Assembly: GCA_014871385.1 (NCBI GenBank)
Contig: CM026429.1
Coordinates: 669,365 to 733,364, forward strand
Reading direction: 5' to 3'
DNA length: 64,000 nt
DNA from: Ceratodon purpureus
Taxonomy: Eukaryota > Streptophyta > Bryopsida > Pseudoditrichales > Ditrichaceae
The translations under genes and the position numbers were made by a program. Under the pieces are notes generated by a model that did not search any database, had not been told where the DNA came from, and was given only the letters and a program-made list of their open reading frames with translations. This document shows positions 1 through 64,000 of the stretch, piece after piece (position 1 is the stretch's first letter; the number at the start of each line of letters is the position of its first letter).

Positions 1-3000
1 GCACCTCCTCTTGCCCCTCGTCTAACCCCTCCTCTCCTATCACCTTCAGTACATGAACATCCCCCCCTACCTTACCCTTACTCTCCCCTCCTCCTTCTAT
101 TTCACTGTCCAACTCCATGTCACTATCTCTCTTAACCTCCCCGGACACTAAGCCTATGTTACGTCTTGGCACACCTCCCTCACCCGCGTCACTCCTCGCG
201 TCTTCTTTACGTGGGCGTTCCACGGCTTCTATGTCTTGTGTGAGCACCATCTGAACCGGTGTACTCTGAATGAGTCCCTCATCCCTGAACTTCTTCTCGA
301 TGTCCAACCTCGTTGCTTTATCTTCTTTTGGCTTCTCTTCTTGTACCTGCTGAACCTGGGGACTGTGGCCACTTTCTCCCTCATCGTCTTCATCGTCGCT
401 CTCTTCGCTCTCACTATTGCTGCCACTTACTGTAGTCCCCGAGTTGGACGGTAGATCAGGACATTTCTCTGAGACAACCCCACATGAACAGTTAGAACTT
501 AAACCTTGTGGACAAATCACACACTTTCCATTCATTCGGTTCATATTACAACTGAATTACAATGTGAACTATATAATATAATACATCATAAGTGGAGTTA
601 GAATGGCATACCTTCGGGTTCAGAGTCTTCATCTTCCGATTCTTCAATGAACTCGGGCTCCGTCACCTTCGATTTCCCGCGTGAATCCTTCTCTAGGCAC
701 TCGAAAACCTTCTCCGGAGGTAGTGGAGCTCGTGCTCCTGACTTCCGTCCCTCAGATCTCCCGATTGAAGTTCCAGACCTTGTGGTTTCCAGATTAAATT
801 TCACGGGACTGTCCACCACCATCTTACCTCCATCATGCTCTCGGACCACCTGTAGGCTGCTAGTAAACGTCTCTCCACCAGCTGAGTCTCTGAAACGCGT
901 AGAGACGGCCTGACTTTGCTCTCCACCACTAGCAAGCCCGTGAGAAAGGCAGGACATCGGCTTCAATGACGAATCTGCCATCAAAACAAACATTCTGAAT
1001 TAACAAATCCATCAAAAGTACAACAATATACTGTAAGTACATATACTACATCAGAAACTACTATTAGTACTTCTGCGCCTCATCTTCCTCGAGACTTTGC
1101 TAGTACATCCCAGAATAATGTACTATTCTGGACCAACGTAGTACTTTTATGCCACCTAAGTACTAGTATAACTGAAACAAGTACTAGTAAGTAAGCTTTG
1201 GATTACAGATAGATTCTCACTCATACAAAGAGTACTACGCTGAAGTACTCTATAAATTGAAAATGAATACATCATGTACAACACACACAACTACTGCGTC
1301 AACATTTGTATTTACCAAAAGTATTCAATGTACAGAAACTCTGTGAAATAAGCAATATGTACATGAAAGTACTAAAATAATACAATATGTAGTGAAAACA
1401 AAAAAACAAATAATGCATGCAAGTACAGAAAGTAAAAACTGAGCAGGGGAATGTAATCTTCCTTGAGCCTCTGCAAGACAAGTACTTGTGATTAGTACTC
1501 TACGTTTAAACGGAAAACAAAAAAATGCTACTTAGTACATCTTTAGTACTATTTCTAATACTAAAAGGAGGATCAGTACTATAAAGGTATACGTCTCGTA
1601 GAAACAAGAAACCTTAAGGCAGTACCTCAGAACAGCAAGGTAGGATGGCATTTGAAATAAAAACCACCATAGTACTGACCTGTGTTTGGACATCGTAGCC
1701 TAGCTCGTTCAGCTCGTTCAGCAAGCAACCGCGCCACCTCCTCGTCACACATGGTAATCTGGGCAGCAACATCTTCGACAACGAGAGTACCTGGACCTCC
1801 CCACCCGAAACTACGGTGCCAATCCGGGTCTACCATTTTATCACTACAGTTAGCTGCGGCACACTTGTACCCGTTCTCGTAGGTCACCTTTGCACAGAAA
1901 GGGTGGTACATGTGCTTACAGCTCGCTATTATAATATCACTCTTGGGGAAGTTGAAACCGCAAAGGGCACACATGGTGATCTTCAAGAACCTGCGCTCGG
2001 GAGACTCGTCTTCGCCAAACGCGGAATCAGGGTATACAAGAGGTACAGGGTTGAGGCTCGCAGATTGCCTCCCATATTTTATGCGATCAATCTCCACCTT
2101 CACCCCTTCACACATCCGCGTCTTCTGCTCCCGCAACCTGCGACATTCTTCTGCGGCTAAATCCCTCTGTAGCGCCTCCGCCTCCTTCCTTCCTAGACAT
2201 TGCTTCTGTTCCTCCAACAGCTCGGCTAGTAAACTCTGTTTCGCTTCATTTCCCGGATGTGCCACGTCCGCATTTTGAAGAGAGGCCAAATTAGCTTCGT
2301 AGGACTCGACCATCAAGAGCGCCAGCCGCTGGTCCTGAGCAGCTCCATCTTTAGCTTTCTTCGCCAACTCCTCGTCCATCTTCAACCCCTCTATCTCCAT
2401 TAGTAAAACTGTGTGCATTGTCTGGAAGTACTCCAATTTTGACATCGAGGCTATCCCCCGATCCTCCACCTTCACTGTGGAGTTAGCGAATTCAGATTTC
2501 GTCCCCACCCTTCTACTGGTCGTCACATTGCCAGGTGGCGGGATAGCCCTCCTCTACAACAACAACAACAATAAAAAGAAACAAACAGTTAATAGTCAGA
2601 AAATATGATTTTAGAATACATGTCGCATTCAGACACAAACTAAAACCGGAGATAATAACCTTAATCAGAACAGACTTATATTACACTGCAATTCATTTCA
2701 ATTGATCTGACTAATGCAATGCGAAGCATAGACCTACTCAGAATACTTTAACACTGACTCGTCAGATCCAGACTTCTAATTTTCAGTAACTTCCTAAACT
2801 AGAAATTGAAATGAATCCATTATCATTGCAATGTCTTCTATAACATAAACTGATATCACACACCCTAAGCAAATTGCATTGCATCAACAACTGACATAAT
2901 AGGAAAACAGAATACAGTTTAGTGCACATACCTTAGTGGGCGTTGCAGCCTCCATTCCAACGTTCGGCTCCAACTTCACTTTGACCGCAACATCAACCTT

Positions 3001-3657
3001 TAGACTCCTCCAAGTCCGCTTCGTCACCTTCGCTCCCGTGTTGATGGCAAATTGTAGCTTTGAGAGATCCTGTTCGTACTTTCGCCGCTGGCTATTATTC
3101 GTCTCTTGGCCATACAACGCCCAGTTGACCAAGTTCTTCTGGTACTCCAAGACTACGCCCACAGCGAACTGTTTCGTCACGCATCTCGGTATTTCTTCAG
3201 GTCCGTGTTGATACACGATTGGATGTAAGTACTTTATGCGGTTCACTATCTCCCGCACCTTGCAATCAGACCACGAGTATCCACCACGCCCCTTAACCCC
3301 CTCCGGCTTCAAACCGAACTCCAGCATCGTCTTGTCGCTAATATCCTTATCCTTCCGACAACGATGGGGGTTGATGGAGTTCGGGCCGCACTCCAGATCG
3401 TACCTGTCCCGGAAGTCCTCCCATGTTAGCACATCCGGAGGAGACTTCAGGCCGTCTATCAACTCCTGCAAGTCATCGATGTCGAGAAAGCGCTCCTCCT
3501 CCTTCACGGACATCCCTAGCTGTTCACTGCCCCCAGACTTAGTCTTACCAACCTGCACTCCCATCCCAGATCCCGCACTCCCTCTAGACTTAATCTTCCC
3601 ATCCCTCGAAGTCGATATTACTCCCTCTAAACCCCCGGACTTGGACTTCCTCGACAT
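1..3657 (-). CDS. RING-like/SUVR-type SET fusion protein, copy 1 (3' part outside window)
   Basis: Proposed exons on the minus strand are 3657-2932, 2553-1680, 974-612 and 504 to beyond the window start. Splice sites are GT-AG and reading phases agree (0, 1, 1). Exon 1 starts at an ATG and encodes a lysine/serine-rich start followed by a globular domain (242 aa). Exon 2 encodes a long charged coiled coil, then a RING-like finger with the pattern C-x2-C, C-x-H-x2-H-x2-C, C-x4-C, closed by a DPDWHRSFG motif. Exons 3 and 4 encode acidic Glu/Asp/Ser-rich sequence with a small Cys cluster (NCSCG...C). All four frames are open here, unlike in copy 2. The SET exons seen in copy 2 would lie before base 1. 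Role inferred: chromatin factor carried by the transposon. Confidence 0.65.
1012..1679. repeat. GTAC-motif-dense intron (copy 1)
   Basis: The intron between exons 2 and 3 of the fusion gene contains about 22 GTAC tetramers in about 680 bases, mostly within AGTACT, AAGTAC or GTACTT. Chance at equal base use is about 3. No open frame of note. Similar clusters occur in the transposase introns and near both element ends, so this is a property of the element. It may be binding sites for the element's own protein. Confidence 0.75.
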
Positions 3658-3960
3658 TGGTAAACAATCAAGATCTGCGCCCTACCACTACCCTAAACCC
3701 TAAAACACTAAACAAATATTCCAACTCTTACCCAACACGACCAGCTGACCCTAATCGCAAAAACTGAATGGAAAAAAAACCTTAACTTCGACAAAAGAAT
3801 ATAACCCTAAATCCTCTAATTCCGAATACCCATCTCATGTACCGCACCCAAGAACAAAACACCTCTGAAACAAACAGAACCCCTAAACAATGACACACAA
3901 ACAACTGAAATCAAACCCCAGACCAAACCCTCAACACAACAAACGCATCTCACGACATTG
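3658..3960 (-). promoter_or_regulatory. Leader/promoter region with telo-box of the fusion gene
   Basis: Upstream of the ATG at 3657 (minus strand) the DNA is C/A-rich on the plus strand with short 'accctaaa' units at 3,690-3,710. These telo-box-like motifs are common near plant transcription starts. No clear TATA box was identified. The assignment rests on position and motif only. Confidence 0.4.
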
Positions 3961-4370
3961 GTAACTCTCAATCACTCTCTCCTTACCGAAAGCTCTATCC
4001 CTCAAACCCTGAAACCCACAATCCCTCTATCCCGCACAAAAACACCAACCCTCCATCTGAACTAACAACACAACAATAAACAAACAAAACAGCTAAACCT
4101 CCTCTCCAAAACTCTCAACTCATAAGCACATTGCTAAAACAAACCGTAAGCAAAACAAACGAAACTCACGAAAACTCTAACTCTCAACCCCTCTATCTCT
4201 ACCAGCAACCTCTAACATTCAAACCCTCTAACAGTCGATCCCTCTATCCCTCACAAAACCCCCTAACCCTCCATCTGAACTAACAACACAACGAACAACA
4301 TCATAACAAAAGACCCCCCTCTTCAAAACTCAAAACTTTTAAGCAAATTGCGAAACAACAAACACAACCG
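3950..4370. repeat. Imperfect 218-bp tandem duplication near the element end
   Basis: The block around 3,960-4,150 recurs around 4,170-4,370 at a spacing of 218 bp. For example, a segment starting aaccctccatctgaac lies at 4,047 and again at 4,265. Copy 2 carries the same pair at about 63,420-63,830. C/A-rich, no coding frame. Confidence 0.7.
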
Positions 4371-4559
4371 AGACTAGACCAACACCACCAACACCAACGA
4401 GACTGGAGAAAACTCGAGGTGCAAGACGAAGACTACCGGCTACAGTAGGTGAGACCCAATCCGGTTACCTGAGACCACCGGTCAAGTCCAACGCTATTGG
4501 TCGATCTGAGCATGGGCGCAGGTGGATCGCGGTGGTAATATCGACGGCTACGATTATCC

Positions 4560-4653
4560 AGAGAAGTACTAGAGATACTTACTAGCAGAAATGTACTAAA
4601 AAAGTACTTCACAAATCTGCCCAAAGTGTACCCGGTGTAGTGTACTCTCACCC
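4560..4653. repeat. Candidate right terminal sequence of copy 1
   Basis: GTAC motifs cluster at 4,565-4,650. The last 20 bases (4,634-4,653, ggtgtagtgtactctcaccc) read on the minus strand resemble the start of the second copy at 49,276 (gggtgtaagcacactgcccc). Shared are the GGGTG start and the central ACACT. The match is imperfect and the boundary is a hypothesis. Confidence 0.45.
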
Positions 4654-5667
4654 GGCTGCTGTTCTTAATGTTCTTCGAATCTCCAAAATCCGACGCTTTT
4701 TGGCAGTTTCCCATGGGGCGAGCACAACCTGCTCGTCCTCCTTCGCAAGCAGTATGGGGTCATTCAAACCACCAAGAATTATAGATGTAAGGCGTACATA
4801 CACGTGTTGACTTTACATGGAAAGACTTGCTTTTATAGCAGCTGAGGATACATTTGAAGATCTTATGATCATTTCTTGATCGCAAACTTTGCTTTTCTTC
4901 TTTTCATTTCGTGTTTTAGTTCCAGGGAGAGGTTTTCAGATTGTTCAACTAGTCATGAACCCTTTATTCATCAGGGGATACACACAATTGTTTTTAAACA
5001 TAAACACTCTATATCGATATACATTAATTTGGTTCGACCTGAATTCTCGTCTTTTGTTCATTCCAATGCTACGTCGATGCTGCCTTGTATCGGTGAAATT
5101 TGCACTGATGTACAATTTGGACTTGCGTTTTTAGTCTGTTAGAATGATTTGCAACAATTCAAGGTGTGAACCTTTAACTTCTTATGTCCACTAGAGAGTT
5201 TCACTGACATCTCAGAGTTAATGATATTGTAGCTATATCTCGGACTAGATGATGAATCTGGCAATGCGGAGAAAGGTGACACAGGATGTGGTCAACTGTT
5301 TCCTTGATTTTGAGCTGTGTTTTTAGGGGGTTTGAGTCGAGCCCATCATCTACTGAAAGGCTTAGGAGCTTCAACAATCCAAAACATACGTCTGGTTTGC
5401 AAGGAGACAGCAAGGAGCTCCTTGTGAATGTCAAGGACCATCTATCTCAGCTGCATTTTAGAATCTCTTGAGCTAGGCTTCCTGGTTTCAAATTTAATCC
5501 ACCAAGTAAAGCTCTCGACGTGAAGTAACTGCAGTGCGTGCTTTGCAAACATCAATTCCCTGAATCACTTCGATCAATGAAGTCGATCGCGGGCGAATAA
5601 GTATGTCATGATTGAGCTTATGAAGTTGGAACCATCCACCACAAAACATGCAGGCAAGGATGTACAC
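4654..5667. other. Non-coding sequence without recognisable gene
   Basis: Only short open frames occur here. None has a recognisable domain, and no repeat of note was found. Confidence 0.5.
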
Positions 5668-28350: not shown

Positions 28351-28369
28351 GTCCAATTCAGACTGCTCC

Positions 28370-37053: not shown

Positions 37054-37228
37054 CCTTGATGTTTATTAATGCTTGTGTGAGTTGGCCAAACCTTGTCATT
37101 AGTAGCCCTTATTAGTTGCATGGCCTAGGCGATGAAGTTTGTTGATGAAGTTGTGTTAGAATTGATGGAAATGTTGTTTTTTGTGTTATGGAGATTGAAT
37201 GCCTCCACGTGGGACTTGCTAATTTTCA

Positions 37229-43131: not shown

Positions 43132-43134
43132 GGT

Positions 43135-44940
43135 CACTTTACAACCACTGTTTGGACGAATGAAGTCACTCCCCTTTCCACAGCCTCTCTTTCCAACTAA
43201 TAGCTTTCGATTGCAATGCACAACACTTACAAAATTAGGCAGACGCCAGCACCCTCTATCCAGATATCCAAACAACGAAAATTACATTCAGGTGGAAAGC
43301 CAATCCAGTGTGTGTTGACAACAGAGCCAAGCTCAGATCTCACCTTCATCGTGATCAATTAAGCCCTAGAGAACCGAACATGAAACTTGCCCGATGGGGA
43401 GCAGTAATGTTGAGGTAGGAATTAATGAAGCAAGATTAGTACAACTTGATGAGATGTGCAACACTTTCACGACAATACAGCGAATTCTAGATAACTTGCA
43501 AAAAGATCTAAGGATTATGAAGATTAAATGGATGAATCCACCAAAAATATCTAAAACGGCCAGAAGACTAATCGAATGATACAGGACCAGACATGATGAT
43601 CAACATCCTTGAGCATCATCATTCAAGGACCTTGAAATTGTAAGATGTCAATTTCCAGTAATACAACATGATACTCCTACCTATCATTGGCAGCCAAGGC
43701 AGCATGATAATCGCCACTGGTGCTAATACTAGACTTCATAGGGCAACTGAATGTCCATGCTGCATATTATACGTATATGTCACTTTGATTTCAAGCATGC
43801 AAATTTGATGAAATCCATCCAACCCCGAGCGCAATACTTATGCGATCAGTGTGAAAACCGATCAGGCGACTTTCTAGATATTATTTACCTTGGAGCCTCT
43901 AAGTATAGGCTATCTGGCTCTAACTATGCTTCAAGCTCCATTAAGGCCTTTGATAATTGTGCAAATTGTGGAAGGTCAGCTGAAACAAGTGTCCGCTACG
44001 GAGTAGTGTCACTGTGGAGGGGATCTTACGGAGCCTTTGGTTGGGTTTAGATAGTGGTCCCGACGGCTATTTGTTCTTCTCTTCAACAATATCTTGTATT
44101 TCATTTGGGTAGGTTTGGACTCCACTTAGAAATGCTCACACAGAGTTTTCCTACAATTTTTGGAAGAGTGGTTGACGAGTGTTAACAAGGGAATCACTGG
44201 AGACAGACAGCATGGAAGCGTACTCTTCGTTTCCTAACAGGGCAGTTTGTTACTTCAAAGAGACTTTTCATTGAGTCTTATTTCTATGTTTACAGGCATC
44301 GTTGTGTGCTTCATGTATTAGAATTATTTGTATAGGATTTAGATAACTCTATTGGTGCTAAATTGTTTGGTTGTTGACCAATTTAATGTTGCAAGTACTT
44401 TGCATTTCTCCCATTTAAGGAAATTAATCCCGAAAGTGGAAAATATAATGCCATTGAGCAAAACTGACAAATATTTTCAGTTCTTTCGATTGAAATTCGA
44501 AGGACATTGTATGATCGTTCCGCTACGCAAGCTCTGCTTAGTTGGGCATGTGAGCGGTTACTGATTTGGCATGAATGCTCCTACAGGGAAATTAACTCTA
44601 CCAATGCAAAAAATTGCTCCATTGAATTCTCGATCAGGCGTATGATCATGAGTCATTCTCGCAAAGCAACTGCCTTGCAACTAAACTTTCTTCACGAACT
44701 AGCTCATGCTTGCGTACTTAAGCCCAGAAGCCTTCATCTGCACCACCACAACCAAATGTACTCACGTCAACTTCCTGAAAATCAAGCGTACATCCAAACT
44801 ATGGCAATGTAATCGCAATTCCTCGAAGATACTACCTTACCAATTTGGAATTAGCAACCCTATCTTTGAAAGGAAACAGTGCATCCAAGCACCACAGAAA
44901 TTTGGAATTGTAAAAGGACAGTCCGCTCTTGATAATTGTA
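43135..44940. other. Non-coding sequence, no gene recognised
   Basis: Several short frames (43,394-43,579; 43,751-44,050; 44,507-44,812) without recognised domains or splice-consistent partners. Confidence 0.4.
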
Positions 44941-45540: not shown

Positions 45541-46570
45541 ATTAGGGTTAAGGGTTTAGAGTTTAGGGTTTAGGTTTAGGGTTAAGGGTTAAGGGTTTAG
45601 GGTTAAGGGTTTAGGGTTTAGGGGTTAGGGGTTAGGTTTAGGGTTAAGGGTTAAGGGTTTAGGGTTAAGGGTTTAGGGTTTAGGGGTTAGGGGTTAGGTT
45701 TAGGGTTAAGGGTTAAGGGTTTAGGGTTTGGGGTTTAGGGTTTAGGGAAATTAGGGGATATGGGGGAAATTAGGGAAAATTAGGGGATTTAGGGAAAATT
45801 AGGGGAAATAGGGGAAATAGGGAAAATTGGGGGAAATTAGGGGAAATAGGGAAATAGGGGAAATTAGGGGATATAGGGGAAATAGGGGAAATTAGGGGAT
45901 ATAGGGGAAATAGGGGAAATTAGGGGATATAGGGATAATTAGGGAAAATTAGGGGATTTAGGGAAAATTAGGGGAAATAGGGGAAATTGGGGGAAATTAG
46001 GGGAAATTAGGGGAAATAGGGAAATAGGAGAAATTAGGGAAATTAGGGAAAATTAGGGGAAATTAGGGGAAATAGGGGAAATTAGGGGAAATTAGGGGAA
46101 ATAGGGGAAATTAGGGAAAATCAGGGGAAATAGGGGATATAGGGGAAATAGGGGAAATTAGGGGATATAGGGGAAATTAGGGGAAATTAGGGGATTTAGG
46201 AGAAATTAGGGGAAATCAGGGGAAATCAGTGGACAATAGGGGAAATTAGTGAGATATAACGGAAGTAGGGGAAATTTTAGGGGTTTATAATTAGGGGAAA
46301 TTAGGGGAAATTAGGGGAATTAGGGGAATTCGGGAAATTAGGGGCTATAGGAGAAATTGGGATATAGGGAAATTAGGGTTAACTAGGGAAATTAGGGTTA
46401 ACTAGGGGAAATTAGAGAAATTAAGGGAAATTTTAGAGAAATAGGGGATATAGAGGAAATCGGGAGGAAATAGGGGAAATAGGGGAAACTTAGAAGAAAT
46501 TGGGGAAAATAGGGGAAATAGGAGAAATTAGCGGAAATTAAGGGATACAGGGGAAATTAAGGGAAATTAA
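45541..46570. repeat. Telomere-like array grading into degenerate AAATTAGGGG repeats
   Basis: The first 200 bases are TTTAGGG, TTAGGG and TTTAGGGG variants, including two copies of a longer higher-order block of about 80 bp (45,560-45,720). The remaining 800 bases are tandem gggaaattaggg, ggggaaatagggg and ggggatatagggg variants that become more irregular toward 46,570. The graded structure suggests local expansion from an interstitial telomere tract. Confidence 0.9.
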
Positions 46571-49080: not shown

Positions 49081-49275
49081 ATAGGACCTTCTGTTCTCTA
49101 TTTCTCATGTTTACTTAAATGTTCGATGTGAATTGAATACTTCGGAGGTTTGATGAGTTTGGACCGACTAAACATTGCGGTAACCTGCATCTCCTGCTAC
49201 TGATTATGTGTTTTATGGTGAGGCAGAATGGCAGCTATATGCGGTGTTAATTGGAATGATGTTATTATCAGGGCT

Positions 49276-49545
49276 GGGTGTAAGCACACTGCCCCCCTAA
49301 AAAGTATGTCAGAAAAGTACTTTTCTGGAAATACTTGGTAGAAAGTACTCTGTTTTCCCAAGTAAAATCTGTACGAATGCATTTCCCATCACAGAATATG
49401 ATTGGAACATTGCTTAGCATTGTTATCGCAATTCCAAGATCACAAAAAAAGTCGTATGGAGTAACAAAAGTAGTACTTTCCCCAAATTTAAAAGTATGTC
49501 AGATTGTCAAAAATTATACAAAGTACAAATTTATGCTTAGTTAGA
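49276..49545. repeat. Candidate left terminal sequence with GTAC motifs
   Basis: Begins gggtgtaagcacactgcccc and continues with aaaagtacttttctgg, aaagtactctg and gtagtacttt. The minus-strand reading of 4,634-4,653 begins similarly, and is also followed by agtactttttt-type motifs. Taken as a short imperfect terminal inverted repeat plus subterminal motifs. Confidence 0.45.
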
Positions 49546-50149
49546 TGTTTTTTTTTCCTGTGATATTGTAACAGGGTATAGGACTCATAAAAGGCTACGG
49601 ACCCCACTTGAAAAAACTAGGAGAAGCTGAAGATCCATGGAAATATTTGCTGCCTTTTGCCTTTTTTTTCCGCAGTCTAGAATTCCTAAAATACAAGGAT
49701 CTTTTGTGATTTTCCTACGTAGAAGGCTTTCTGGACGTGCGCCCCATGTTGGCTAACGGCCATTTCATTCTTATCAGTTGTTTTATTAGACATTAATAAT
49801 TGATGTGGCCGCCACTAAGAGTAGTTGAAAATGTACTCCCAAAATGAGAAGTACTTAGAGTACTTTCCTGCAGAATTTTGAACCGTCGGATTACAATGGG
49901 CTCACATCTCAGCCGTACGCGTTGTTGATAAGGTCCGATATAAGTGGATCTAGCCGGTTTCGAATGCAGGTGGATCTTCTGTTAGTTTAAGAGATGGATG
50001 AATTTTACTAGAATCTGTTCATCTCCAAATGGTTTCTCTTGCATGCACCTACAGTGCATGCAAGGGTTCTGAACGTCGACTGAAGTTGTTTTTCGGTGTT
50101 GCAAGGATTGTAAGCTGCGGCGCAGCCATCGCCAGGGTTTGCCACACAA

Positions 50150-50748
50150 ATGTCTGGGGAAGGGCATCTTCCAAACTGCACACTAGTTCAGTCCCTCATA
50201 ACATCTTACTACGTAGTGCGAGATCCCCCGCAGCTTGTGCAGCAGCGAATTACCCATTACTACCCTGTCTGCGACGTTGTCAACGAAAAGATTGAGAGTG
50301 TAGGTCAGCATTTCACTACGTATTCATGCGATAGTCCCTCAGATGATGTGTCTAGTAGTACCCACGTATCCGAAACTCCAACTTCAAAGGTTGGAGATAT
50401 TAGCTGGTACCTGCATCATTCAAACCAAGCGCTGCAGTCCCGTGAGCGCCTGGTCCAGTCGCCCAAAACCTTGTTCGGATCTTTCACCGTTGAGGGCGGT
50501 CTCCCTCGGCAGGAACTCAGGTGCTACCCCGACTGTCGAAGTCCTTCCCCTGTGCGTTCGGTGAGTTTCTCCTCAAGTTTGTGCAGAACTTTTCATTTCT
50601 GATTATGTACTTGTTTTGTTGTCAAATTTATGTTCTTTGATGGCAACATGTTGTACTTGTTCCCCACTGTATTTGCACGTAGGTCCAGGACAAGGCTCTT
50701 GCAACCTCTATTTTTCCAGAATGTGATCTGCCTTCTCTAACCGCGTAG
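50150..50748 (+). CDS. Small two-exon transposon gene, 158 aa, unknown function
   Basis: Exon 50,150-50,560 (137 codons, ATG start) joins exon 50,683-50,748 by a GTGAGT donor and TAG acceptor with phase 0 on both sides, ending at TAG 50,746. The product starts MSGEGHLPNCTLVQSLITSY, contains QQRITHYYPVCDV and a Ser/Thr-rich middle, and has no recognised domain. The stop is 37 bp before the transposase ATG. The two could therefore be co-transcribed, alternatively spliced into one protein, or represent an ORF1-type accessory protein such as a DNA-binding partner. Confidence 0.5.
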
Positions 50749-50785
50749 TCTCTTCTGTGGGTTCACGGGTCTCATCACTTGTAGC

Positions 50786-53700
50786 ATGGGGGACCAAGCC
50801 CGGAGACAGAGGTTGAGGCCGCGACGTGCTGGTGCTGCGGAGAGGGCGTCATCAATGGAGACTGTAGAGGCTGCACGGTTAGAGAAAGCAGAGCGCAATC
50901 GGTTGTACCAGGAACGCCGTCGCAAGAGAATTTCCATGGAATCGGAAGGAGGAGAGACGTGTACGACAAACACAGTGCCTGAGATTTCAGATGCCATTTC
51001 TACGCGAGATGCATCTAGGGTTGCTCAGAAAATTGTCCACAGCATGTGTGATGAGCTAAACCTTCTTCCTGGTCCCCACTGTCGTCAACTTGTGCTTGAG
51101 AAGGTTCTTCGCCACAGTCTTGTTTGGCCTTTGTTACCTTACTATTATCCTCGGGATTTAGAAGCTAAGAGTATTCATTATTTTATTCAAAGTTATAGAG
51201 CAGAGTTACAGTCCGTGTCGATACCGTTCTCAAACAACATGTTGTCTAGAAAAGGTGCTCTTCTGGATGCTGCTGTTAGTGGGAATGTTGGGGGTGTTAG
51301 GGCGCTTGCACGTGTCTTAGGAACCAAGACAGATAATATACAAGCTGCCTTGGAAAGGAGAGAAGAGTATGAGGAGGGTGCTGCTCGGTTTGCACCCTTC
51401 GCAGGCAAAAACGCACAGATGGATCTACAGAGTACTGTCTTGCTACAGTTCAAGCTTGGTGGCACAGTCAAACCAGAGTAAGTCCAAACAGAAAGGACGT
51501 CGTGAACAAGGGCGGTGGGCTGAAAAGAGGAGGAGAGACACATCCAAAGCACTATTTGACAGTCACGCAGGTATGTCTTCAATACTTTGCATGAAAACCA
51601 TCTTGTACCGCATGTACACAGCAATCCCACTGTACAATGTTGCATTTACTTGATGTACTTCAACACCGTTAGTACTTCACGTACTCGCAAAGAAGTACTA
51701 ATAGTGTCGAAAATTCTCCCCTATTTTACTCTTTTCATTTCAAGGTGCAAAAAGTATGTTCCTTAATGAAAACAGTAGAGTACTATTAGTATCACATGTA
51801 CTAGTTCTTATATTAAGTGTACTTGCGAAATTACTTTGTGTACAAATGGATTTATGTAATGTGTATTATTATGATTTAGGGTACAATCCGCATGTAGTTT
51901 TCATAATATAGGTAGTACTCGATGGGGGCAGTGTTGTATACTGAAGTACTTTATGTTTTGAGTATGTACGCTTAACTAGTACTTTTTATAATACAAGGTA
52001 CTCATAGTATTATGTTAATGCCGAATATGTATTTGTTGGTACTCGGTGAATGTACTTTCGTTTTTCAATGTACCTGTGGGTTCAGATTGTCGGTTCTGTA
52101 GTACTAATAATACTTTTTTATGTATGTGGTGTGTAGACGACATTCTTCTTGCAGTTCAAAGAGGCTCATCCAAAGTGTAAAATCGGGCAACGACGATTTG
52201 AGAATCTGAAACCATGGTATGTGAAACCTCTTAGGGACCGTAATGTGTGCTGCTGCATCTACCATGTAGAAATGGATCTCATGAGGGTAGGACTGAACAC
52301 CCTACGGGAGGAGAAGAGGGGTCTGCATGCACAAATACATTGCTCTTGTAAATGTGACGTCTGTTCTGCTTCTGTGGAGACTGCAACGGGTGAGGGTATA
52401 GGCTGTGATGCTCATCACGGAATATTTAAGAGGATCACTCATTTGTGGGAAGCTTGTCTTTGCAAGAAGCCAGAGTTCAATGAATGGCACAAGCTCTCTT
52501 GTCTAATGGGTGATTGTGAAGAATGTGGCGTAGATACTCTAGGTTTTTGCCCACAGGAGATGTCTTCACTGGAAGAACCTAAACTTAGGTGGAAACACTT
52601 CTCGTATGTTACTATTGGCACTGACCGTGAGACAGGGAAGGCGAAGAAAAGACTGCAGGAGGTATATGAAGAGACTAGTCCTCTGGAGTTTGTTACTTAC
52701 CTAAAACCCAAAGTTCAAGCCTTTATCAAGCATAATTTTATTGCCAATTGGCAGGATTGGCAGTGCAAGGAAATGATGGAAGGTTTGCCCGAGGGAGTTA
52801 TAGTTTCCCACATCGATTTTGCAGAGAATTACGAATTCCAGATTCAAAACGAAGTTCAGAGCATGTACTATATGTCTGAGTATGTGTCCTTGTTGGTCCA
52901 TATCACTTTGCAGAGAGTCCGTGATGTGACTGGTGATTTGATCACCAGAAAACATACACACTACTATATTTCGGATGACAAGAAACATGACAGTTTGTTC
53001 GTTCAGCATTGTCTTATGCTACACTGGAGGTGGTTGATTGCTAACGGGGAAAAACCAAGGGAGCATTGGGTATTCTCTGATGGCTGTGCAGGTCAGTTTA
53101 AGGGGGCTACAGCAATGTATTTTGTTGCTAGATATCCCAGTCTCACAGGAGGCTGCTCGATGATCTGGAACTTTTTCGCGACTGGACATGGGAAAGGTAC
53201 TTGTTATTCTGTACTTTTGTACTTATTTGAGTGAAGCTCCATTACTTTTAGTACTTTTGTTACTGGAGCGTATGTACTTCTGTATATCTTGAATGGAGAC
53301 AGTGTACTTATGTACTTTTTGTGAGAGAAGCAGAATGTATATTACGAGATGGGGATGATGTGCTATGTTGTCAATATGGATTTACTGAACATTTTTGGAT
53401 GCAATTGTAGGTGAATGGGATGGTGCAGGGGCCGTAGTGAAGCGTGCTTTACGTATCGAACAGATTCGAAACCCTGAGAGGCAGCTTCAAAACGCCCTCC
53501 AATGTGTTGAGTACTTACAGCAGGGCTTCTCTAATAGAGCGCCTTCTTCGTATGCAGGGACTAGCAGCAGGGATATTCACCGTACCTTTTGGCACGTAGG
53601 TGAGAGCGAGATCAGCAGGGAGTCATCGATGGCGTGTCACACTATTGCAGGCTCAAGATCTCTCCATTCCATTATGGGGAATTCTACCAGCAATAAGACA

Positions 53701-54407
53701 TGTTTGCTGGTTAGACCTCTGTCATGTTTCTGTGCATCGTGCATAGATAAAGACTGGGAGAATTGTGAGCAAACGGCTCATGTTCCAGGGTGGAGGGCAG
53801 TGCAAATTCAGCCCAAAGCGCCGTCAGAGGAGCTGGAGACCCTGGAAGACGACCCAGCCGAGCAGGTATTGTTGTGTGATAGCATCTCAGTGCAAGGTTT
53901 TTTTTTTTACATCAAATTCGGATTCTTTAATGCACGTAACTTTGCTGGACACATGAAACATAATCTAAGATGCTCATATACTGATTTATTCAGGTACAGC
54001 GAGGAGAGAGGCTAGACGAAGTCGTTGACATTGGTGACAATTTTGTGGTTCCAGCTGAACAACCAAATGAAGAGGGTGTTGACTTCTATATCTTGCAATG
54101 CCAACGACGAAAGTATAAACTGAAGGCTCCTCTGTCGTGTCCTTGGGGTGCCGAATTTGAAGCAGGGGATTTCGTCATTGAAGGCACTTATTACAAAAAG
54201 TCTGGCCGGGGTGAATACACATACACATATCTTGAAAAATCAGTCGTAGCTCATGTTTCATCGCACCTGGTTCTAGCCTGCAAGTTCCGAATGAAACTCG
54301 CCCCATACTGCCTGAAAGGTGGGGATCCAGTATATAAGATCTCCTCAGAAGTAGTCGATGTTGTGAGACACGCTTTAGCACAGATGTGGGAAAATGACGA
54401 TGAGTGA
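50786..54407 (+). CDS. DDE-type transposase-like protein, five exons
   Basis: Exons: 50,786 to about 51,480; a short basic segment to 51,570; 52,155-53,196; 53,411-53,865; 53,994-54,407. The last three junctions are GT-AG with consistent phases. The N-terminus is Arg-rich (nuclear or DNA-binding). Exon 3 carries Cys clusters (HCSCKCDVC; CLMGDCEECG...FC), then a likely RNase-H-like core with three acidic stations: VSHIDFAENYE, HWVFSDGCAGQFKG and, across the intron, GHGKGEWDGAGAVVKRAL. The C-terminus (WGAEFEAGDFVIEGTYYKK) is a small beta-rich domain. Similar SDG...HGKG...DGAG proteins are transposon-encoded in several eukaryotes; I cannot name the superfamily securely. The joins around 51,480-52,155 do not keep frame, so one indel or a misjudged exon remains there. 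Confidence 0.65.
51640..52136. repeat. GTAC-motif-dense intron of the transposase gene
   Basis: About 18 GTAC tetramers in about 500 bases (gtactt, agtact and ggtact contexts) against about 2 expected. A second short cluster fills the next intron (53,197-53,320, about seven). Exons of the same gene do not show this density. Confidence 0.75.
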
Positions 54408-57158
54408 TAATTATTGCAATTAATCAACTGGAACTTTCATACTATTTCACTGGAATCAACTAACCTGGACTATGATCCGACTGAAATCTATGTGTCATGT
54501 GTGAGAACGTACCTGGTTGTTATCCATCTCCCATGGAGGACGTTGATTGATTGGGTCAATATACAATGAGGTACATGGATACCATTATGTTCCACTGTCA
54601 TTAAGCAAATCAGAGTTATTCACCAGTCGTAGTGTTAGGTGAGCATGAACAAGGCATCAGAAACCAGACAGGTATGATCCATACAAAAGTTATGTAGCAA
54701 TATCAATGGAGCGCCTAGGTGGGACTGGAATGATGTTCACGATTAAAAATAATCAAATACCGTTGGTTAAGTTTTTACTCGGAAGGAATACCCACAGAAA
54801 TGACACCTCAATTCACAAGACTGGCATCTACCATTATTATGATCCCTCTAATTTTAACTCAAAAACATTCCCTTCAAAAATTAAAGACATGTTGTCCACA
54901 GGCGCAGTCGAGTCTCACTATAAACAGGGATCTGGAGCAATAATGGAATCGCTTTACCTTTTGCAAAGGGACCACTGCTTTATAAAACAGCTGTTTGTCA
55001 GCTATTAGTACGCAGCTTACTTTGAGTCTCGGCAAATACTGCAACTGGACTAACGCTTCACAGAATTTGAAGCATAAACCATGAATAATAAAGGGTTATA
55101 CTAGTAGACGCGTCATGGTATTGTCTTAAGCGCCTTCAGTGTCCGGGTAAATGCACGTTTATAAGTTCTTTAACCAAACTTAACATGCAAAACGGCGATT
55201 TAAAATGATAAAGGCAATTACAAATGAATAAACAACAACCAAAAAACATAACTATATCATATTTAACTAAATATAGATGTGCATGTATGTGACCTTAAAT
55301 AAAACCTTATTGGACAATTACTTTGATTTAGATAATTTAGAACTTAAAGGTAAGTGACCAGTCAATTTTTAAAAAAAAATATGGAAAGCGGATATAGGCA
55401 TAGATGTTATTCACATTTATTTAAGAAAATTAAAAGATTTTAATTTGAAATAATCTGAGAATACAATTTTTGGTATAAAAAAAGTTTAAACGCTTAGATA
55501 ATACTTGAGTATTAGTGGATATGCGGTAATATTTCAAAATTACCTATAAGAGGTTCTCTAATAATGATTCACATAATTATCCATTACTTTTGTATTGTTT
55601 ATTTACATTTTTTATTTATTTTCAACCTTCTTTATTCTTCTTGACCTTCCTCATACTTCATTTACTTTTATTTTTCCCTTGAATCCACTTTATTTCATCC
55701 TTCTTATTCTTCATTTTTTTTTTGAAGCTTCTCTCTTCTTGTTCTAGAGTTTCTTTTATTTGATCTATTATTATCAATCTTATCCATTCTTAGTATTTAA
55801 TTTATTTACATTTTTATTTTCAACCTTCTTTATTCTTCTTGACCTTCCTCATACTTCATTTACTTTTATTTTTCCCTTGAATCCACTTTATTTCATCCTT
55901 CTTATCTTCATTTTTTTTTTGAAGCTTCTCTCTTCTTGTTCTTGAGTTTCTTTTATTTTGATCTATTATTATCAATCTTATCCATTCTTAGTATTTAATT
56001 TATTTACATTTTTATTTTCAACCTTCTTTATTCTTCTTGACCTTCCTCATACTTCATTTACTTTTATTTTCCCTTGAATCCACTTTATTTCATCCTTCTT
56101 ATTCTTCATTTTTTTTTTAAGCTTCTTCTCTTCTTGTCTTGAGTTTCTTTTATTTTGATCTATTTTTTTCAATACTATCCATTTTTTAAATTTTATTCAG
56201 TTACAATTTTTTTTTTTACCTTTTTATTCTCTATTATCCCTTTTTTGTTCCTCTTGTTTTTTCTCCTTTCATTTAATTGAATCTTTGAAAGGCCACATAT
56301 TTCTTCTTTTATTTATTATTCTTTTAGTTGATTACATGTTTTCCAATCTTCTTCTCCATTTGTGTTGTCTTATTTTTTCTTTAATTTTTTCATTTTTTTC
56401 CCTATCTTATTGTTTATTATTGTTCACGTTCATTTTCTATTTCTTGAATTTCTGAATTTTTTCCTCACCCATTCTTATTTCAGGATATGTCAAAGTCTTT
56501 GTGGACTGATTGGGTTGGTGGGAGAGACGCTGATCTGGATGTAAACAAGTACATGTGGCGGGAGAATTAAGAGGGGGAAGGTTTCTGAGTGGAGGGAAGT
56601 GATTCCTTTCTAGGAGAACAGTCCGAGCGGGACGGAATCCAAAGCAATCAGATTGCCGCCTGAATGTGGCCGTTTGGAAACAAATATAGTCCATATAGCG
56701 ATGTCGAAGCTACTGCTCTGTATTTTTGGTCTCTTGTATTTCTTTAGCTTGAACTCAGTCCCTGATAACCGTAATAGCGTCACAACCTAGGTACGCATCT
56801 CTTAGTACTCCCTCATTCCTTGACCCAGCTGCTGCGTGTTTCCTGACTCCTCTTATCAGTTCATTGCTTTCGAAGTTTTTATGTTTGTGTGCTTCAGCCT
56901 TCTTCCTAAGTGACATTATGAAGTTGACGTCTTCTTAAGAGTATGTTTACGCTTGTTCATCTACGTTGTACTGTTTTTATTTGTTAGACTCAAGAGAATG
57001 CGGATGTGTTATTGTGAATGCAAGTTATTCTGGAAACGCGAGTGCATTGAGGTGGCTTACTGGAGTGATTTACAAATTTGTGTTGATTTCAGTTAGGTTC
57101 TACAATGCACAAATGTCTCCAATGTTCTGACCATAGACTTAGCAAAAGTTCCTCAATC
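54408..57158. repeat. Central spacer of the transposon with threefold pyrimidine-rich repeat
   Basis: 55,594-56,190 contains three successive copies of a unit of about 200 bp, beginning near tatttacattttttatttt and containing cttgaccttcctcatacttc. They differ by small indels and are T/C-rich on the plus strand. A 100-codon frame at 54,706-55,008 has no recognised domain. The rest is AT-rich and non-coding. The spacer separates the convergently transcribed transposase and SET genes. Confidence 0.7.
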
Positions 57159-60100
57159 TTATGGCACTGTTTTCTTGCGGCTCCTGACTGTCCACTTGCA
57201 GGTGCCGTGATGCTTCCTTTTCATTTTGGTTTTCCTGATCGACCTGATCGGCTTCTCTTCCATCGGTTGCCTTGGCTTTTCCTCCATCGGTGACGCTGGC
57301 TTCTCCCGTACTGACTTTAGTTTTACCTTCCTTTGCTTGTCTCGGCAGTTGCTACTTCCGCATCGGCATCTGAAGCTGGGTATATCCCGGTCATCAGACT
57401 TGAAGTCTTCGCCGTAGTCCTGCCACAGATGACAACCTTGGGTTAGTAACAGTCCCTAGAATTCACTTTGGAATTTACATGATAATAGAAACTAGGCTGG
57501 ACAACGTAGAGGTAGGGCCTCATATTCGGTAGTACTACTTACCCAAGTCAACTCCTCTCCTGGGTAGATGTCACGTCTGGCAAAGAATGCCACGTGGTAG
57601 ATGCGGTCTTCAGCTGAGTGGAGTCGAGCAGGCATGTCGATGACGTTGGCTCCCTCGCACCTGAAACCACCAGAGTAGCAATTTTTTAGAATAATTAGGA
57701 CTACTAGACACTAAGCACTGAATTCCATTGTGCCATTCACATTTTGAGCTAGGACGGTCCATGCCTGTGGTTTAGAAATCTCGCAACATTGCCATAGTGA
57801 GTTGCATCGATACATAGGGAGTTGTTGTCCGTGGCCATTATTTCTGATCGCCAATTAGCATCGAGCTGAAGCGTATAGGTTTGCCTAAACCCAAGAAGCT
57901 TGTGCACCAAGTGGTTCCGTTCGATCAATTCACCATTTGTCACTATCTCCCCCGCGAGCTCAAACAAAAACTTACCTGCCTGGATGTGCTCCACTGTCCG
58001 GACACCCCAGCCTCGTGTAGAAGTATTGAAAACCTGGCAATGACAATGCAATTGTTAAAAACAAGATATTTCAAAAACGCAAGTTCCATAATGATAACCG
58101 TAACTCTGTAATCTAGTTCATTCATCCTTACCTGGACTTTCGTTGTCATGCCATGCTGTATGACCCGGTTCCCACACTTCGAATGGCAAGCGCACATGGA
58201 GTTGCATTCCGTAATAAAGGTCCTTGTTTGGTGACCACGACAAACTATCTCCTCCTCACTAGTAGTGTCTTTGTCTTCATTCGGGAGACTAGAACAATAA
58301 CAACCAGCACCTTTGTCACAATATTCCAAACTTAGCTTGTCATCCAACTTGTTCAGGACATCTGTCCGAAGGAGGCCAGCCGTGTCGTATGCAAATTCCC
58401 CTGACTTCAGGGCGCACGTACAACCAGATTTTCCGGATGTTAGACAGTCAGAACCACATCCTACACATCCCTCTTTGGGTTTGAATGTGTCTCCCACGGG
58501 TTTCCACAAGTCGCCACCACTAGGCTCCTCAACATATACCATGCTCTCTTTAGTGTAGTAAAATTCAGGAAGGGGGATGGGTTTTCCAATAGGACCGATC
58601 AGTTGCACGGGATTTCGCTCCAAGCCCTGTGATAGGTCCGCAACCAATACTTTACCCTGTTTTGACAAGGCAGATTTTATTCCCTTAGAATTAGTGGATT
58701 GGTTGAGTTGTTTTGGCACATGATGGAATACATACAAAACAGTCAGAGTATAGAGGAAAAAAACCAATTATCAAAATGAATAAAAAACAGATCAGAGTAT
58801 AGAGTAAGAAACCGTAGACATAATGGAGCCCACGTATGTATATCTGAAGATACGAAGCATTGTGTACAAAAAAATTCCATCCCATACTTAACTGCCTACA
58901 CAACTCTACACAATCCTACACAAGCCTACTACAACAGTTAGTTAGAGGACTCCAGTACGCTGTTCACTGGCTTGAGTTTTTCCCGCTTGGGCTTGGGCTG
59001 CATCCGGGACTACCAACATTGGGGCAGTTACGAAGAGAAGGGGTCTCCTTGACTTTCTCTTGCTAGATTTCTTCTGCCCACCCTTTTCCACCGCACAGTC
59101 CTTCTGCCTTCTACCCTTAGACTTCCGTTGCGTTGCCAGATCATCACCTTCACTCGATCTCCTACTGGCCCGGGTCCTCTGAGCTGGCCCGTGTTCTCCG
59201 CCACCTGATATTCCAATCACACCGTGTTCTTCCAACTCCTCCTGAAGCCTCCTCCCTTCTAAGGACTTTCTCTTCCCCTTCACCTGTTTCTCCTTCACCT
59301 GTTTCTCCTTGGCCTCGTTCTGAACACCTTGGGCGGCCTCATCTCCCTCGATACTTTGCTCCATGCCCTTCGGGTTCTCCCCTTCTTCACACTCCTTATC
59401 CTGGTTGGTGGGCACATCCAAAGCCATATTCGACTGAACCAAGGAGGTCCAAGGTCTGCCCCAAATTTCTAGGCTATCCTGTTCCAGCACCTCTTGCCCC
59501 TCGTCTAACCCCTCTCCTATCACCTTCAGTACATGAACATCCCCCCCTACCTTACCCTTACTCTCCCCTCCTCCTTCTATTTCACTGTCCAACTCCATGT
59601 CACTATCTCTCTTAACTCCCCGGACACTAAGCCTATGTTACGTCTTGGCACACCTCCCTCACCCGCGTCACTCCTCGCGTCTTCTTTACGTGGGCGTTCC
59701 ACGGCTTCTATGTCTTGTGTGAGCACCATCTGAACCGGTGTACTCTGAATGAGTCCCTCATCCCTGAACTTCTTCTCGATGTCCAACCTCGTTGCTTTAT
59801 CTTCTTTTGGCTTCTCTTCTTGTACCTGCTGAACCTGGGGACTGTGGCCACTTTCTCCCTCATCGTCTTCATCGTCGCTCTCTTCGCTCTCACTATTGCT
59901 GCCACTTACTGTAGTCCCCGAGTTGGACGGTAGATCAGGACATTTCTCTGAGACAACCCCACATGAACAGTTAGAACTTAAACCTTGTGGACAAATCACA
60001 CACTTTCCATTCATTCGGTTCATATTACAACTGAATTACAATGTGAACTATATAATATAATACATCATAAGTGGAGTTAGAATGGCATACCTTCGGGTTC

Positions 60101-63100
60101 AGAGTCTTCATCTTCCGATTCTTCAATGAACTCGGGCTCCGTCACCTTCGATTTCCCGCGTGAATCCTTCTCTAGGCACTCGAAAACCTTCTCCGGAGGT
60201 AGTGGAGCTCGTGCTCCTGACTTCCGTCCCTCAGATCTCCCGATTGAAGTTCCAGACCTTGTGGTTTCCAGATTAAATTTCACGGGACTGTCCACCACCA
60301 TCTTACCTCCATCATGCTCTCGGACCACCTGTAGGCTGCTAGTAAACGTCTCTCCACCAGCTGAGTCTCTGAAACGCGTAGAGACGGCCTGACTTTGCTC
60401 TCCACCACTAGCAAGCCCGTGAGAAAGGCAGGACATCGGCTTCAATGACGAATCTGCCATCAAAACAAACATTCTGAATTAACAAATCCATCAAAAGTAC
60501 AACAATATACTGTAAGTACATATACTACATCAGAAACTACTATTAGTACTTCTGCGCCTCATCTTCCTCGAGACTTTGCTAGTACATCCCAGAATAATGT
60601 ACTATTCTGGACCAACGTAGTACTTTTATGCCACCTAAGTACTAGTATAACTGAAACAAGTACTAGTAAGTAAGCTTTGGATTACAGATAGATTCTCACA
60701 TACAAAGAGTACTACGCTGAAGTACTCTATAAATTGAAAATGAATACATCATGTACAACACACACAACTACTGCGTCAACATTTGTATTTACCAAAAGTA
60801 TTCAATGTACAGAAACTCTGTGAAATAAGCAATATGTACATGAAAGTACTAAAATAATACAATATGTAGTGAAAACAAAAAAACAAAAATGCATGCAAGT
60901 ACAGAAAGTAAAAACTGAGCAGGGGAATGTAATCTTCCTTGAGCCTCTGCAAGACAAGTACTTGTGATTAGTACTCTACGTTTAAACGGAAAACAAAAAA
61001 ATGCTACTTAGTACATCTTTAGTACTATTTCTAATACTAAAAGGAGGATCAGTACTATAAAGGTATACGTCTCGTAGAAACAAGAAACCTTAAGGCAGTA
61101 CCTCAGAACAGCAAGGTAGGATGGCATTTGAAATAAAAACCACCATAGTACTGACCTGTGTTTGGACATCGTAGCCTAGCTCGTTCAGCTCGTTCAGCAA
61201 GCAACCGCGCCACCTCCTCGTCACACATGGTAATCTGGGCAGCAACATCTTCGACAACGAGAGTACCTGGACCTCCCCACCCGAAAACTACGGTGCCAAT
61301 CCGGGTCTACCATTTTATCACTACAGTTAGCTGCGGCACACTTGTACCCGTTCTCGTAGGTCACCTTTGCACAGAAAGGGTGGTACATGTGCTTACAGCT
61401 CGCTATTAATATCACTCTTGGGGAAGTTGAAACCGCAAAGGGCACACATGGTGATCTTCAAGAACCTGCGCTCGGGAGACTCGTCTTCGCCAAACGCGGA
61501 ATCAGGGTATACAAGAGGTACAGGGTTGAGGCTCGCAGATTGCCTCCCATATTTTATGCGATCAATCTCCACCTTCACCCCTTCACACATCCGCGTCTTC
61601 TGCTCCCGCAACCTGCGACATTCTTCTGCGGCTAAATCCCTCTGTAGCGCCTCCGCCTCCTTCCTTCCTAGACATTGCTTCTGTTCCTCCAACAGCTCGG
61701 CTAGTAAACTCGTTTCGCTTCATTTCCGGATGTGCCACGTCCGCATTTTGAAGAGAGGCCAAATTAGCTTCGTAGGACTCGACCATCAAGAGCGCCAGCC
61801 GCTGGTCCTGAGCAGCTCCATCTTTAGCTTTCTTCGCCAACTCCTCGTCCATCTTCAACCCCTCTATCTCCATTAGTAAAACTGTGTGCATTGTCTGGAA
61901 GTACTCCAATTTTGACATCGAGGCTATCCCCCGATCCTCCACCTTCACTGTGGAGTTAGCGAATTCAGATTTCGTCCCCACCCTTCTACTGGTCGTCACA
62001 TTGCCAGGTGGCGGGATAGCCCTCCTCTACAACAACAACAACAATAAAAAGAAACAAACAGTTAATAGTCAGAAAATATGATTTTAGAATACATGTCGCA
62101 TTCAGACACAAACTAAAACCGGAGATAATAACCTTAATCAGAACAGACTTATATTACACTGCAATTCATTTCAATTGATCTGACTAATGCAATGCGAAGC
62201 ATAGACCTACTCAGAATACTTTAACACTGACTCGTCAGATCCAGACTTCTAATTTTCAGTAACTTCCTAAACTAGAAATTGAAATGAATCCATTATCATT
62301 GCAATGTCTTCTAAACATAAACTGATATCACACACCCTAAGCAAATTGCATTGCATCAACAACTGACATAATAGGAAAAACAGAATACAGTTTAGTGCAC
62401 ATACCTTAGTGGGCGTTGCAGCCTCCATTCCAACGTTCGGCTCCAACTTCACTTTGACCGCAACATCAACCTTTAGACTCCTCCAAGTCCGCTTCGTCAC
62501 CTTCGCTCCCGTGTTGATGGCAAATTGTAGCTTTGAGAGATCCTGTTCGTACTTTCGCCGCTTGGCTATTATTCGTCTTGGCCATACAACGCCCAGTTGA
62601 CCAAGTTCTTCTGGTACTCCAAGACTACGCCCACAGCGAACTGTTTCGTCACGCATCTCGGTATTTCTTCAGGTCCGTGTTGATACACGATTGGATGTAA
62701 GACTTTATGCGGTTCACTATCTCCCGCACCTTGCAATCAGACCACGAGTATCCACCACGCCCCTTAACCCCCTCCGGCTTCAAACCGAACTCCAGCATCG
62801 TCTTGTCGCTAATATCCTTATCCTTCCGACAACGATGGGGGTTGATGGAGTTCGGGCCGCACTCCAGATCGTACCTGTCCCGGAAGTCCTCCCATGTTAG
62901 CACATCCGGAGGAGACTTCAGGCCGTCTATCAACTCCTGCAAGTCATCGATGTCGAGAAAGCGCTCCTCCTCCTTCACGGACATCCCTAGTGTTCACTGC
63001 CCCCAGACTTAGTCTTACCAACCTGCACTCCCATCCCAGATCCCGCACTCCCTCTAGACTTAATCTTCCCATCCCTCGAAGTCGATATTACTCCCTCTAA

Positions 63101-63127
63101 ACCCCCGGACTTGGACTTCCTCGACAT
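57159..63127 (-). CDS. RING-like/acidic/SUVR-type SET histone methyltransferase fusion (copy 2)
   Basis: Minus-strand exons, counting down from ATG 63,127: four exons equivalent to copy 1 (the fourth 59,983-59,032), then 58,656-58,132, 58,033-57,765, 57,660-57,543 and 57,419-57,159 (TAA). All phases agree if one deleted base near 59,615 is restored as in copy 1, giving about 1,360 aa. Residues 1-242 are a novel domain; about 290-410 coiled coil; about 435-490 RING-like finger; then acidic and basic linkers. From about 973 comes the SUVR-type module: pre-SET cysteines (CVGCGSDCLTSGKSGCTC; CNSMCACHSKCGNRV), SET motifs GWGVRTVEHI, CIDATHYGNVARFLNHR then CEGAN, and GEELTW then DYG, and post-SET CRCGSSNC. 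Plant SUVR proteins are H3K9-type methyltransferases. The methyltransferase motifs look intact. Copy 2 has indels in exons 1, 2 and 4. Alternative: two genes, the upstream one stopping at 58,942. Confidence 0.65.
57661..57764 (-). other. Probable GC-AG intron within the SET domain
   Basis: The exon ends AAC CAC AG and is followed by GCATGG, not GT. The next exon begins after tttcag with G TGC GAG. Splicing at GC-AG gives N-H-R-C-E-G-A-N, exactly the conserved SET motif order, and keeps phase. GC-AG introns are a known minor class. Confidence 0.7.
58657..59031 (-). other. Proposed intron linking linker and SET exons
   Basis: A GTAACT donor follows the codons for RRPLLF (59,032), and an aaaacag acceptor precedes GGT AAA GTA (58,656). 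Both sides are phase 0. If unspliced, the upstream frame stops at 58,942. The intron is what turns the RING-like gene and the SET gene into one. Confidence 0.5.
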
Positions 63128-64000
63128 TGGTAAACAATCAAGATCTGCGCCCTACCACTACCCTAAACCCTAAAACACTAAACAAATATTCCAAACTCTT
63201 ACCCAACACGACCAGCTGACCCTAATCGCAAAAACTGAATGGAAAAAAAAACCTTAACTTCGACAAAAGAATATAACCCTAAATCCTCTAATTCCGAATA
63301 CCCATCTCATGTACCGCACCCAAGAACAAAACACCTGAAACAAACAGAACCCCTAAACAATGACACAAACAACTGAAATCAAACCCCAGACCAAAACCTC
63401 AACACAACAAACGCATCTCACGACATTGGTAACTCTCAATCACTCTCCTTACCGAAAGCTCTATCCCTCAAACCTGAAACCCACAATCCCTCTATCCCGC
63501 ACAAAAACACCAACCCTCCATCTGAACTAACAACACAACAATAAACAAACAAAACAGCTAAACCTCCTCTCCAAAACTCTCAACTCATAAGCACATTGCT
63601 AAAACAAACGTAAGCAAAACAAACGAAACTCACGAAAACTCTAACTCTCAACCCCTCTATCTCTACCAGCAACCTCTAACATTCAAACCCTCTAACAGTC
63701 GATCCCTCTATCCCTCACAAAACCCCCTAACCCTCCATCTGAACTAACAACACAACGAACAACATCATAACAAAAGACCCCCCTCTTCAAACTCAAAACT
63801 TTTAAGCAAATTGCGAAACAACAAACACAACCGAGACTAGACCAACACCACCAACACCAACGAGACTGGAGAAAATCGAGGTGCAAGACGAAGACTACGG
63901 CTACAGTAGGTGAGACCCAATCCGGTTACCTGAGACCACCGGTCAAGTCCAACGCTATTGGTCGATCTGAGCATGGGCGCAGGTGGAGGTGGTAATATCG
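59487..64000. repeat. 4.5-kb direct repeat of 1-4,543
   Basis: Offset to copy 1 falls stepwise from 59,486 at the left to 59,457 at the right edge, a net loss of 29 bases in copy 2. Examples are loss of ctc units near 59,495 and 59,515, one c near 59,615, tca near 60,699 and tcgc near 63,987. A few single-base gains in A or C runs occur. I noticed at most one or two possible substitutions. Confidence 0.95.
60490..61155. repeat. GTAC-motif-dense intron (copy 2)
   Basis: Copy of the intron at 1,012-1,679, with the same GTAC motifs retained despite several indels between them. Confidence 0.75.

Follow-up and report, generated by a model that had tools for sequence, protein, structure and literature searches.

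Does a histone methyltransferase gene that lies beside a transposase gene in a moss belong to the transposon itself, and if so, to what end is it carried? The question is raised by a stretch of 64,000 nucleotides (hereafter the window; contig C9:669365-733364) in the 362.5-Mb, 151-contig assembly of Ceratodon purpureus. Plants silence transposons through H3K9 methylation, and a transposon that keeps an enzyme of the silencing pathway under selection makes self-regulation versus subversion of silencing directly testable. In all likelihood the unit described here is a large cut-and-paste moss transposon encoding a transposase, a RING-like protein and a SUVR4-type histone methyltransferase, with the SET gene part of the unit. 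The window contains sequence of two copies, A and B (Table 1).

The original prediction was of one unit bounded by candidate terminal sequences. Comparison with other genomic copies fixes its left edge to the base. Longer stretches were examined for 11 copies: A and B themselves and nine outside C9. Alignments of seven of these nine start at 49276 (five copies) or at 49275 (two copies, in which the flanking base agrees with the window by chance); the other two are C7, whose stretch holds no left end, and C3, covered in part and represented by the other side only. Copies C10 and C5 of a second subfamily, both of those with ends fetched, also start at 49276. The right end, in contrast to the left, is not where the prediction had put it, at 64000: copy A ends at 4653, an identical right end recurs in all five other subfamily-1 copies in which one was found, and by comparison with these, copy B would end about 110 bp past the window. 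The element termini read GGGTG...CACCC, and the terminal inverted repeats match at 16 of 20 bases in subfamily 1 and at 19 of 20 in subfamily 2. Both ends were read in nine copies, and seven of these sit between exact 4-bp target-site duplications; in C5 one of the four bases differs, and C6:78.11 has no duplication and the same left flank as C6:77.78. Aligning the ends and target sites of other copies, the check proposed with the original prediction, in this way bears out the unit. Complete elements measure 14,422-15,102 bp (n = 7). The ends are absent from the longest inverted repeats listed in an inverted-repeat scan of the window. Taken together, the terminal inverted repeats, the fixed 4-bp duplication and the predicted RNase H-like features of the DDE transposase place the unit among terminal-inverted-repeat DNA transposons. 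A 198-bp tandem repeat (3.1 units, 55615-56230) lies within the element and differs in length between copies in the alignments.

The ends of a 4.5-kb repeat at the edges of the window had been equated with the ends of the transposon, and this part of the prediction fails. Window positions 1-4543 (copy A) align with 59484-64000 (copy B) with 4 mismatches and 36 gap columns in 4548 columns, three of the four mismatches falling within the first six bases. The alignment occupies the entire overlap that the window permits, so its ends are uninformative on those of the element. The match also extends at least 1.1 kb to the left of the element, which makes A and B parts of a larger duplication with a spacing of about 59.5 kb. 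As a marker of the element ends the repeat was therefore rejected; it does literally end elsewhere than the transposon, but because the window cuts it, and the true ends were found independently. Few substitutions combined with many small indels are consistent with a duplication that happened very recently as well as with an effect of assembly. The small indels, almost the sole difference between A and B, disrupt the RING frame of copy B and possibly reflect assembly rather than biology.

Table 1. Features of the element in the window (positions are those of the window).
Feature	Position	Strand	Remarks
Right part of copy A transposon	1..4653	.	remainder left of window
RING-like protein gene, copy A	1..3657	-	open frame to window edge, 822 aa
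Right terminal inverted repeat, copy A	4634..4653	-	
Right target-site duplication GGCT, copy A	4654..4657	.	
Left target-site duplication GGCT	49272..49275	.	same 4 bases after copy A at 4654-4657
Transposon copy B	49276..64000	.	left boundary common to independent copies
Left terminal inverted repeat, copy B	49276..49295	+	other copies: GGGTGTAAGCACACTACGCC
AGTAC/GTACT cluster, left terminus	49276..49880	.	19.8 per kb
DDE-type transposase gene with introns	50785..54407 (about 50.1-54.4 kb; 5' start uncertain)	+	open frames, relatives
AGTAC/GTACT cluster, transposase intron	51570..52136	.	37.0 per kb
Transposase main exon	52137-53201	+	predicted exon limits
AGTAC/GTACT cluster, transposase intron	53202..53410	.	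33.5 per kb
SUVR4-type methyltransferase gene	57159..58656	-	predicted exons 58656-58132, 58033-57765, 57660-57543, 57419-57159
RING-like protein gene, copy B	58939..63127	-	small indels break frame
AGTAC/GTACT cluster, RING gene intron	60461..61156	.	44.5 per kb
4-bp target-site duplications by copy			A GGCT; C11 TGAC; C2:16.93 TAAG; C2:13.62 TTGA; C2:16.24 AGTA; C6:77.78 TGGT; C10 TGAT

Within the unit, open frames together with motif and Pfam evidence confirm the predicted arrangement of a DDE-like gene on the plus strand convergent with a SET gene on the minus strand. The main exon of the transposase belongs to a family with 76 relatives in public sequences; D227 and D315, the two acidic residues assigned, are invariant. 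Its predicted strand order is RNase H-like, with fold matches at Z 7.3-8.6, values that are middling and near the tool background; a Foldseek search against the PDB returned nothing at E <= 0.001, and the top match of a second round was a designed protein. Three transposase frames and eight homologues matched no Pfam transposase family, the MuDR type that would be expected of a VANDAL element and the Harbinger type expected of HarbingerS included. The family has no Pfam model of its own and may merit one. No relatives of the transposase or of the SET exon frame were found in viral contigs, plasmids yielded no match in a tblastn search with the transposase, and Rfam and tRNA scans gave no credible one. 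Among named DNA transposon lineages is Lanisha, proposed by authors who work on Ceratodon. It is reported to resemble EnSpm (Maumus, McDaniel and Carey 2020, cited in PMC12730594) and belongs to the CMCT clade, described as having CA...TG ends in most members, and C(2)C and H(3-4)H motifs that lie between the second D and the last E (PMC12730594). The GGGTG...CACCC ends of the moss element differ from these and set it apart by description. The 4-bp duplication and large size recall Sola elements, which, according to PMC10741241 and PMC3627910, make 4-bp target-site duplications, can pass 15 kb and are reported in Physcomitrella; this likeness is one of description.

The SET gene encodes a protein with Pre-SET (49.3 bits) and SET (40.6 bits) domains, both over the Pfam cut-off, and a post-SET motif read by eye. 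Its splice junctions were predicted from the sequence, one intron having a GC donor, and the same exons recur in other copies. The leading matches among 32 protein hits are SUVR4-like proteins of land plants (38-41% identity); a bird SETDB2, a fungal KMT1 and one protist protein are the weakest. The moss protein shares the pre-SET/SET/post-SET layout of land-plant SUVR4 and differs from it in its many copies within a transposon. The N-terminal WIYLD domain (PF10440), which a precomputed annotation gives for 12 of the 32 hits, was not seen by a Pfam scan of the first SET exon frame. In a quick tree built from the proteins among these hits the SET sequence groups with plant SUVR4 proteins; the long branch of the window sequence meets another long branch there, so the tree does not settle its origin. 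Descent from a plant SUVR1/2/4 gene appears probable.

The RING-like protein encoded upstream is 97% and 91% identical, in copy A, to two hypothetical Ceratodon purpureus proteins, and none of the other candidates, 7993 being scored in all, gave a hit; both of these annotated paralogues are 993 aa long and lack SET. Its RING domain match lies under the cut-off. A distant second relative (24% identity) occupies 41971-43281 on the minus strand and perhaps represents another element family. The original prediction made the SET module the C-terminal third of a single gene. The SUVR-type module itself stands, with its post-SET part as read by eye; its place in one gene is unproven, because the upstream protein stops at 58941-58939, matching the ends of the two SET-less 993-aa paralogues, and the stop has the same position in copy A, in C7 and, from subfamily 2, in C5. 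A conserved acceptor, AAAACAG/G (58656), marks the opening of the SET frame, and no start codon was found in its exons. Expression would require either splicing onto the RING transcript or an upstream exon that escaped recognition; a single RING-SET fused protein is one possibility.

Whether transposase and SET travel together was assessed across the genome. A 401-base SET probe detected at least 40 SET copies (40 of 87 candidates scored). All three genes, transposase, SET and RING, are present in 8 of the 11 long copies, including C6:78.11, which has a gap in RING exon 1; C7 has transposase, SET and RING exons 3-4, and C6:75.87 has transposase and SET with no RING exon within the fetched stretch. 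For the other 29 SET copies, 1-kb stretches were probed at the expected distances on either side. In 26 of the 29 the transposase-side stretch contained element DNA, and equally many had it on the RING side, 26 of 29, so that SET is flanked by element DNA on at least one side in 28, the only one with neither being C6:44.22. The transposase-side stretch of C6:99.68, C6:9.18 and C6:22.22 corresponds to the 5' part of the element, and the RING-side stretch of C6:38.37 to its right terminus; these displaced parts indicate that internal deletions occur. The joint travel of transposase and SET implied by the original prediction is thereby upheld, and the copies examined do not place the two genes in different repeats. 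The second subfamily accounts for 7 of the 29 further copies (among them C6:40.18, without a transposase-side match) and shows 73-82% identity to subfamily 1 in matched stretches; the gene order is common to both. Copy A, C11 and three C2 copies lie at different sites and are only 0.28-1.17% apart, which speaks for recent movement. The many copies of the element, which differ in age, offer natural material for testing self-regulation against subversion of silencing.

Coding sequences of the element bear the marks of constraint. The SET exons carry no indel in any of the 11 copies and no stop in 10, C6:77.78 having three stops. SET dN/dS is 0.14-0.34 within subfamily 1 (seven comparisons) and 0.41 in the one pair compared within subfamily 2, several of whose SET copies have stops or small losses. 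Between subfamilies, for five of the seven subfamily-2 stretches (L091 and L093 left out), it is 0.16-0.18 overall, falling to 0.10-0.13 within the SET core. The SET gene is thus under purifying selection, and the between-subfamily values make a dead captured fragment unlikely. For the transposase main exon, dN/dS within subfamilies is 0.04-0.10 in three comparisons and 0.30 in a fourth based on eleven changes, with weaker constraint in the upstream exon (0.55 and 0.83). RING exons give 0.11-0.64, plus two values higher than 2, which are based on eight and nine changes. Corresponding values between subfamilies are 0.05-0.10 for the transposase (6 copies) and 0.07-0.11 for RING exon 2 (7 copies). 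Synonymous divergence between subfamilies is lower for SET (dS 0.90-0.95) than for transposase (1.3-1.8) or RING (1.6-2.4), which argues against simple co-inheritance and may reflect an exchange of SET or its separate acquisition.

A further trait of the element is its density of the motif AGTAC/GTACT, which occurs 104 times; 200 first-order simulations gave 27.7 on average and 53 at most. The motifs are clustered (Table 1) and absent from the first RING intron and from the upstream part of RING. Their density in the SET gene (1.9 per kb) equals that of the rest of the window; set against the clusters elsewhere in the element, this background level suggests that a transposase-plus-RING element existed first and gained SET by later addition. 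We infer that the addition preceded the split of the subfamilies.

SET and transposase genes have been joined before. SETMAR is a primate SET-mariner transposase fusion, and a SETMAR chain appeared at E 0.14 in a search; SETMAR is a fusion gene of the host, not cargo of a mobile element. A closer parallel is provided by the HarbingerS and MuDR families of Phytophthora, DNA transposons with an acquired SET histone methyltransferase gene (Kojima and Jurka 2014, cited in PMC12730594). These known cases, here compared by description only, are from oomycetes and have Harbinger or MuDR transposases, unlike the moss element with its lack of a Pfam transposase family match. SET cargo on DNA transposons is thus already known, and a search of open-licence papers found no plant transposon with a SUVR-type or SET gene. 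Fungal DNA transposons bearing TET/JBP likewise carry an enzyme that alters epigenetic marks, of the DNA demethylation type (PMC12730594). In Arabidopsis and other plants, VANDAL elements with VANC and KIU proteins possess an additional gene whose product acts on the epigenetic state of the element itself, and the target motifs of VANC sit in introns and terminal noncoding DNA (PMC5735166, PMC13317346). VANC lifts silencing and does not belong to the SET enzymes; the cargo of the moss element would write a repressive mark, and any motif binding is likewise putative.

What might the element gain from such an enzyme? As a tentative reading, the SET protein would methylate histone H3K9 on copies of the element itself, guidance coming from a protein of the element that reads the AGTAC clusters of introns and ends, and this marking would limit the element's own expression and copy number. 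That the catalytic core is the best-conserved part of SET favours a working H3K9 writer. The fuller picture of a self-restraining transposon, its own writer steered to the dense AGTAC motifs through an element protein, with the RING-like protein as partner, is somewhat more doubtful. If true, such an element would be the mirror-image counterpart of VANC-based anti-silencing.

The main rival to a self-directed writer is escape from silencing, in which the SET protein would compete with host SUVR or convert the mark into one that represses less. Anti-silencing proteins that bind motif clusters in noncoding DNA are known from plant transposons (PMC5735166, PMC13317346), and the AGTAC layout is alike; a best-conserved catalytic core, however, suits a working writer more than a decoy, and we regard escape as unlikely. 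Considerably less probable is that SET is passive captured cargo of the Pack type, without function for the element. The missing start codon and the copies with stops or deletions agree with such a fate, and host copies seeding elements could explain part of the low dN/dS, but dN/dS far under 1 within and between subfamilies and SET exons free of indels in all 11 copies run counter to it. We give slightly less weight still, and little in all, to a role in marking or selecting insertion sites, such as the heterochromatin of contig C6, which may be a sex chromosome: these 110.5 of 362.5 Mb hold 28 of the 40 scored SET copies, yet only 40 of 87 candidates were scored, the closest copies among those examined are on C2, C9 and C11, and C6 may simply retain old copies. 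That SET is an ordinary host SUVR gene beside a transposon, the first view taken given its introns and its grouping with plant SUVR4 proteins, was dropped as refuted once the genome search had shown at least 40 copies within shared ends and target-site duplications.

Outside copy B, the window contains several smaller features. A TTAGGGT-like array followed by a GGGAAATTAG-like array occupies 45542-46569. A 455-aa open frame at 35686-37053 has a protein kinase match of 31 bits against a cut-off of 31.7. A 375-bp unit is repeated 1.9 times at 37226-37923, and a local duplication at 26624-28351 comprises segments up to 99.6% alike.
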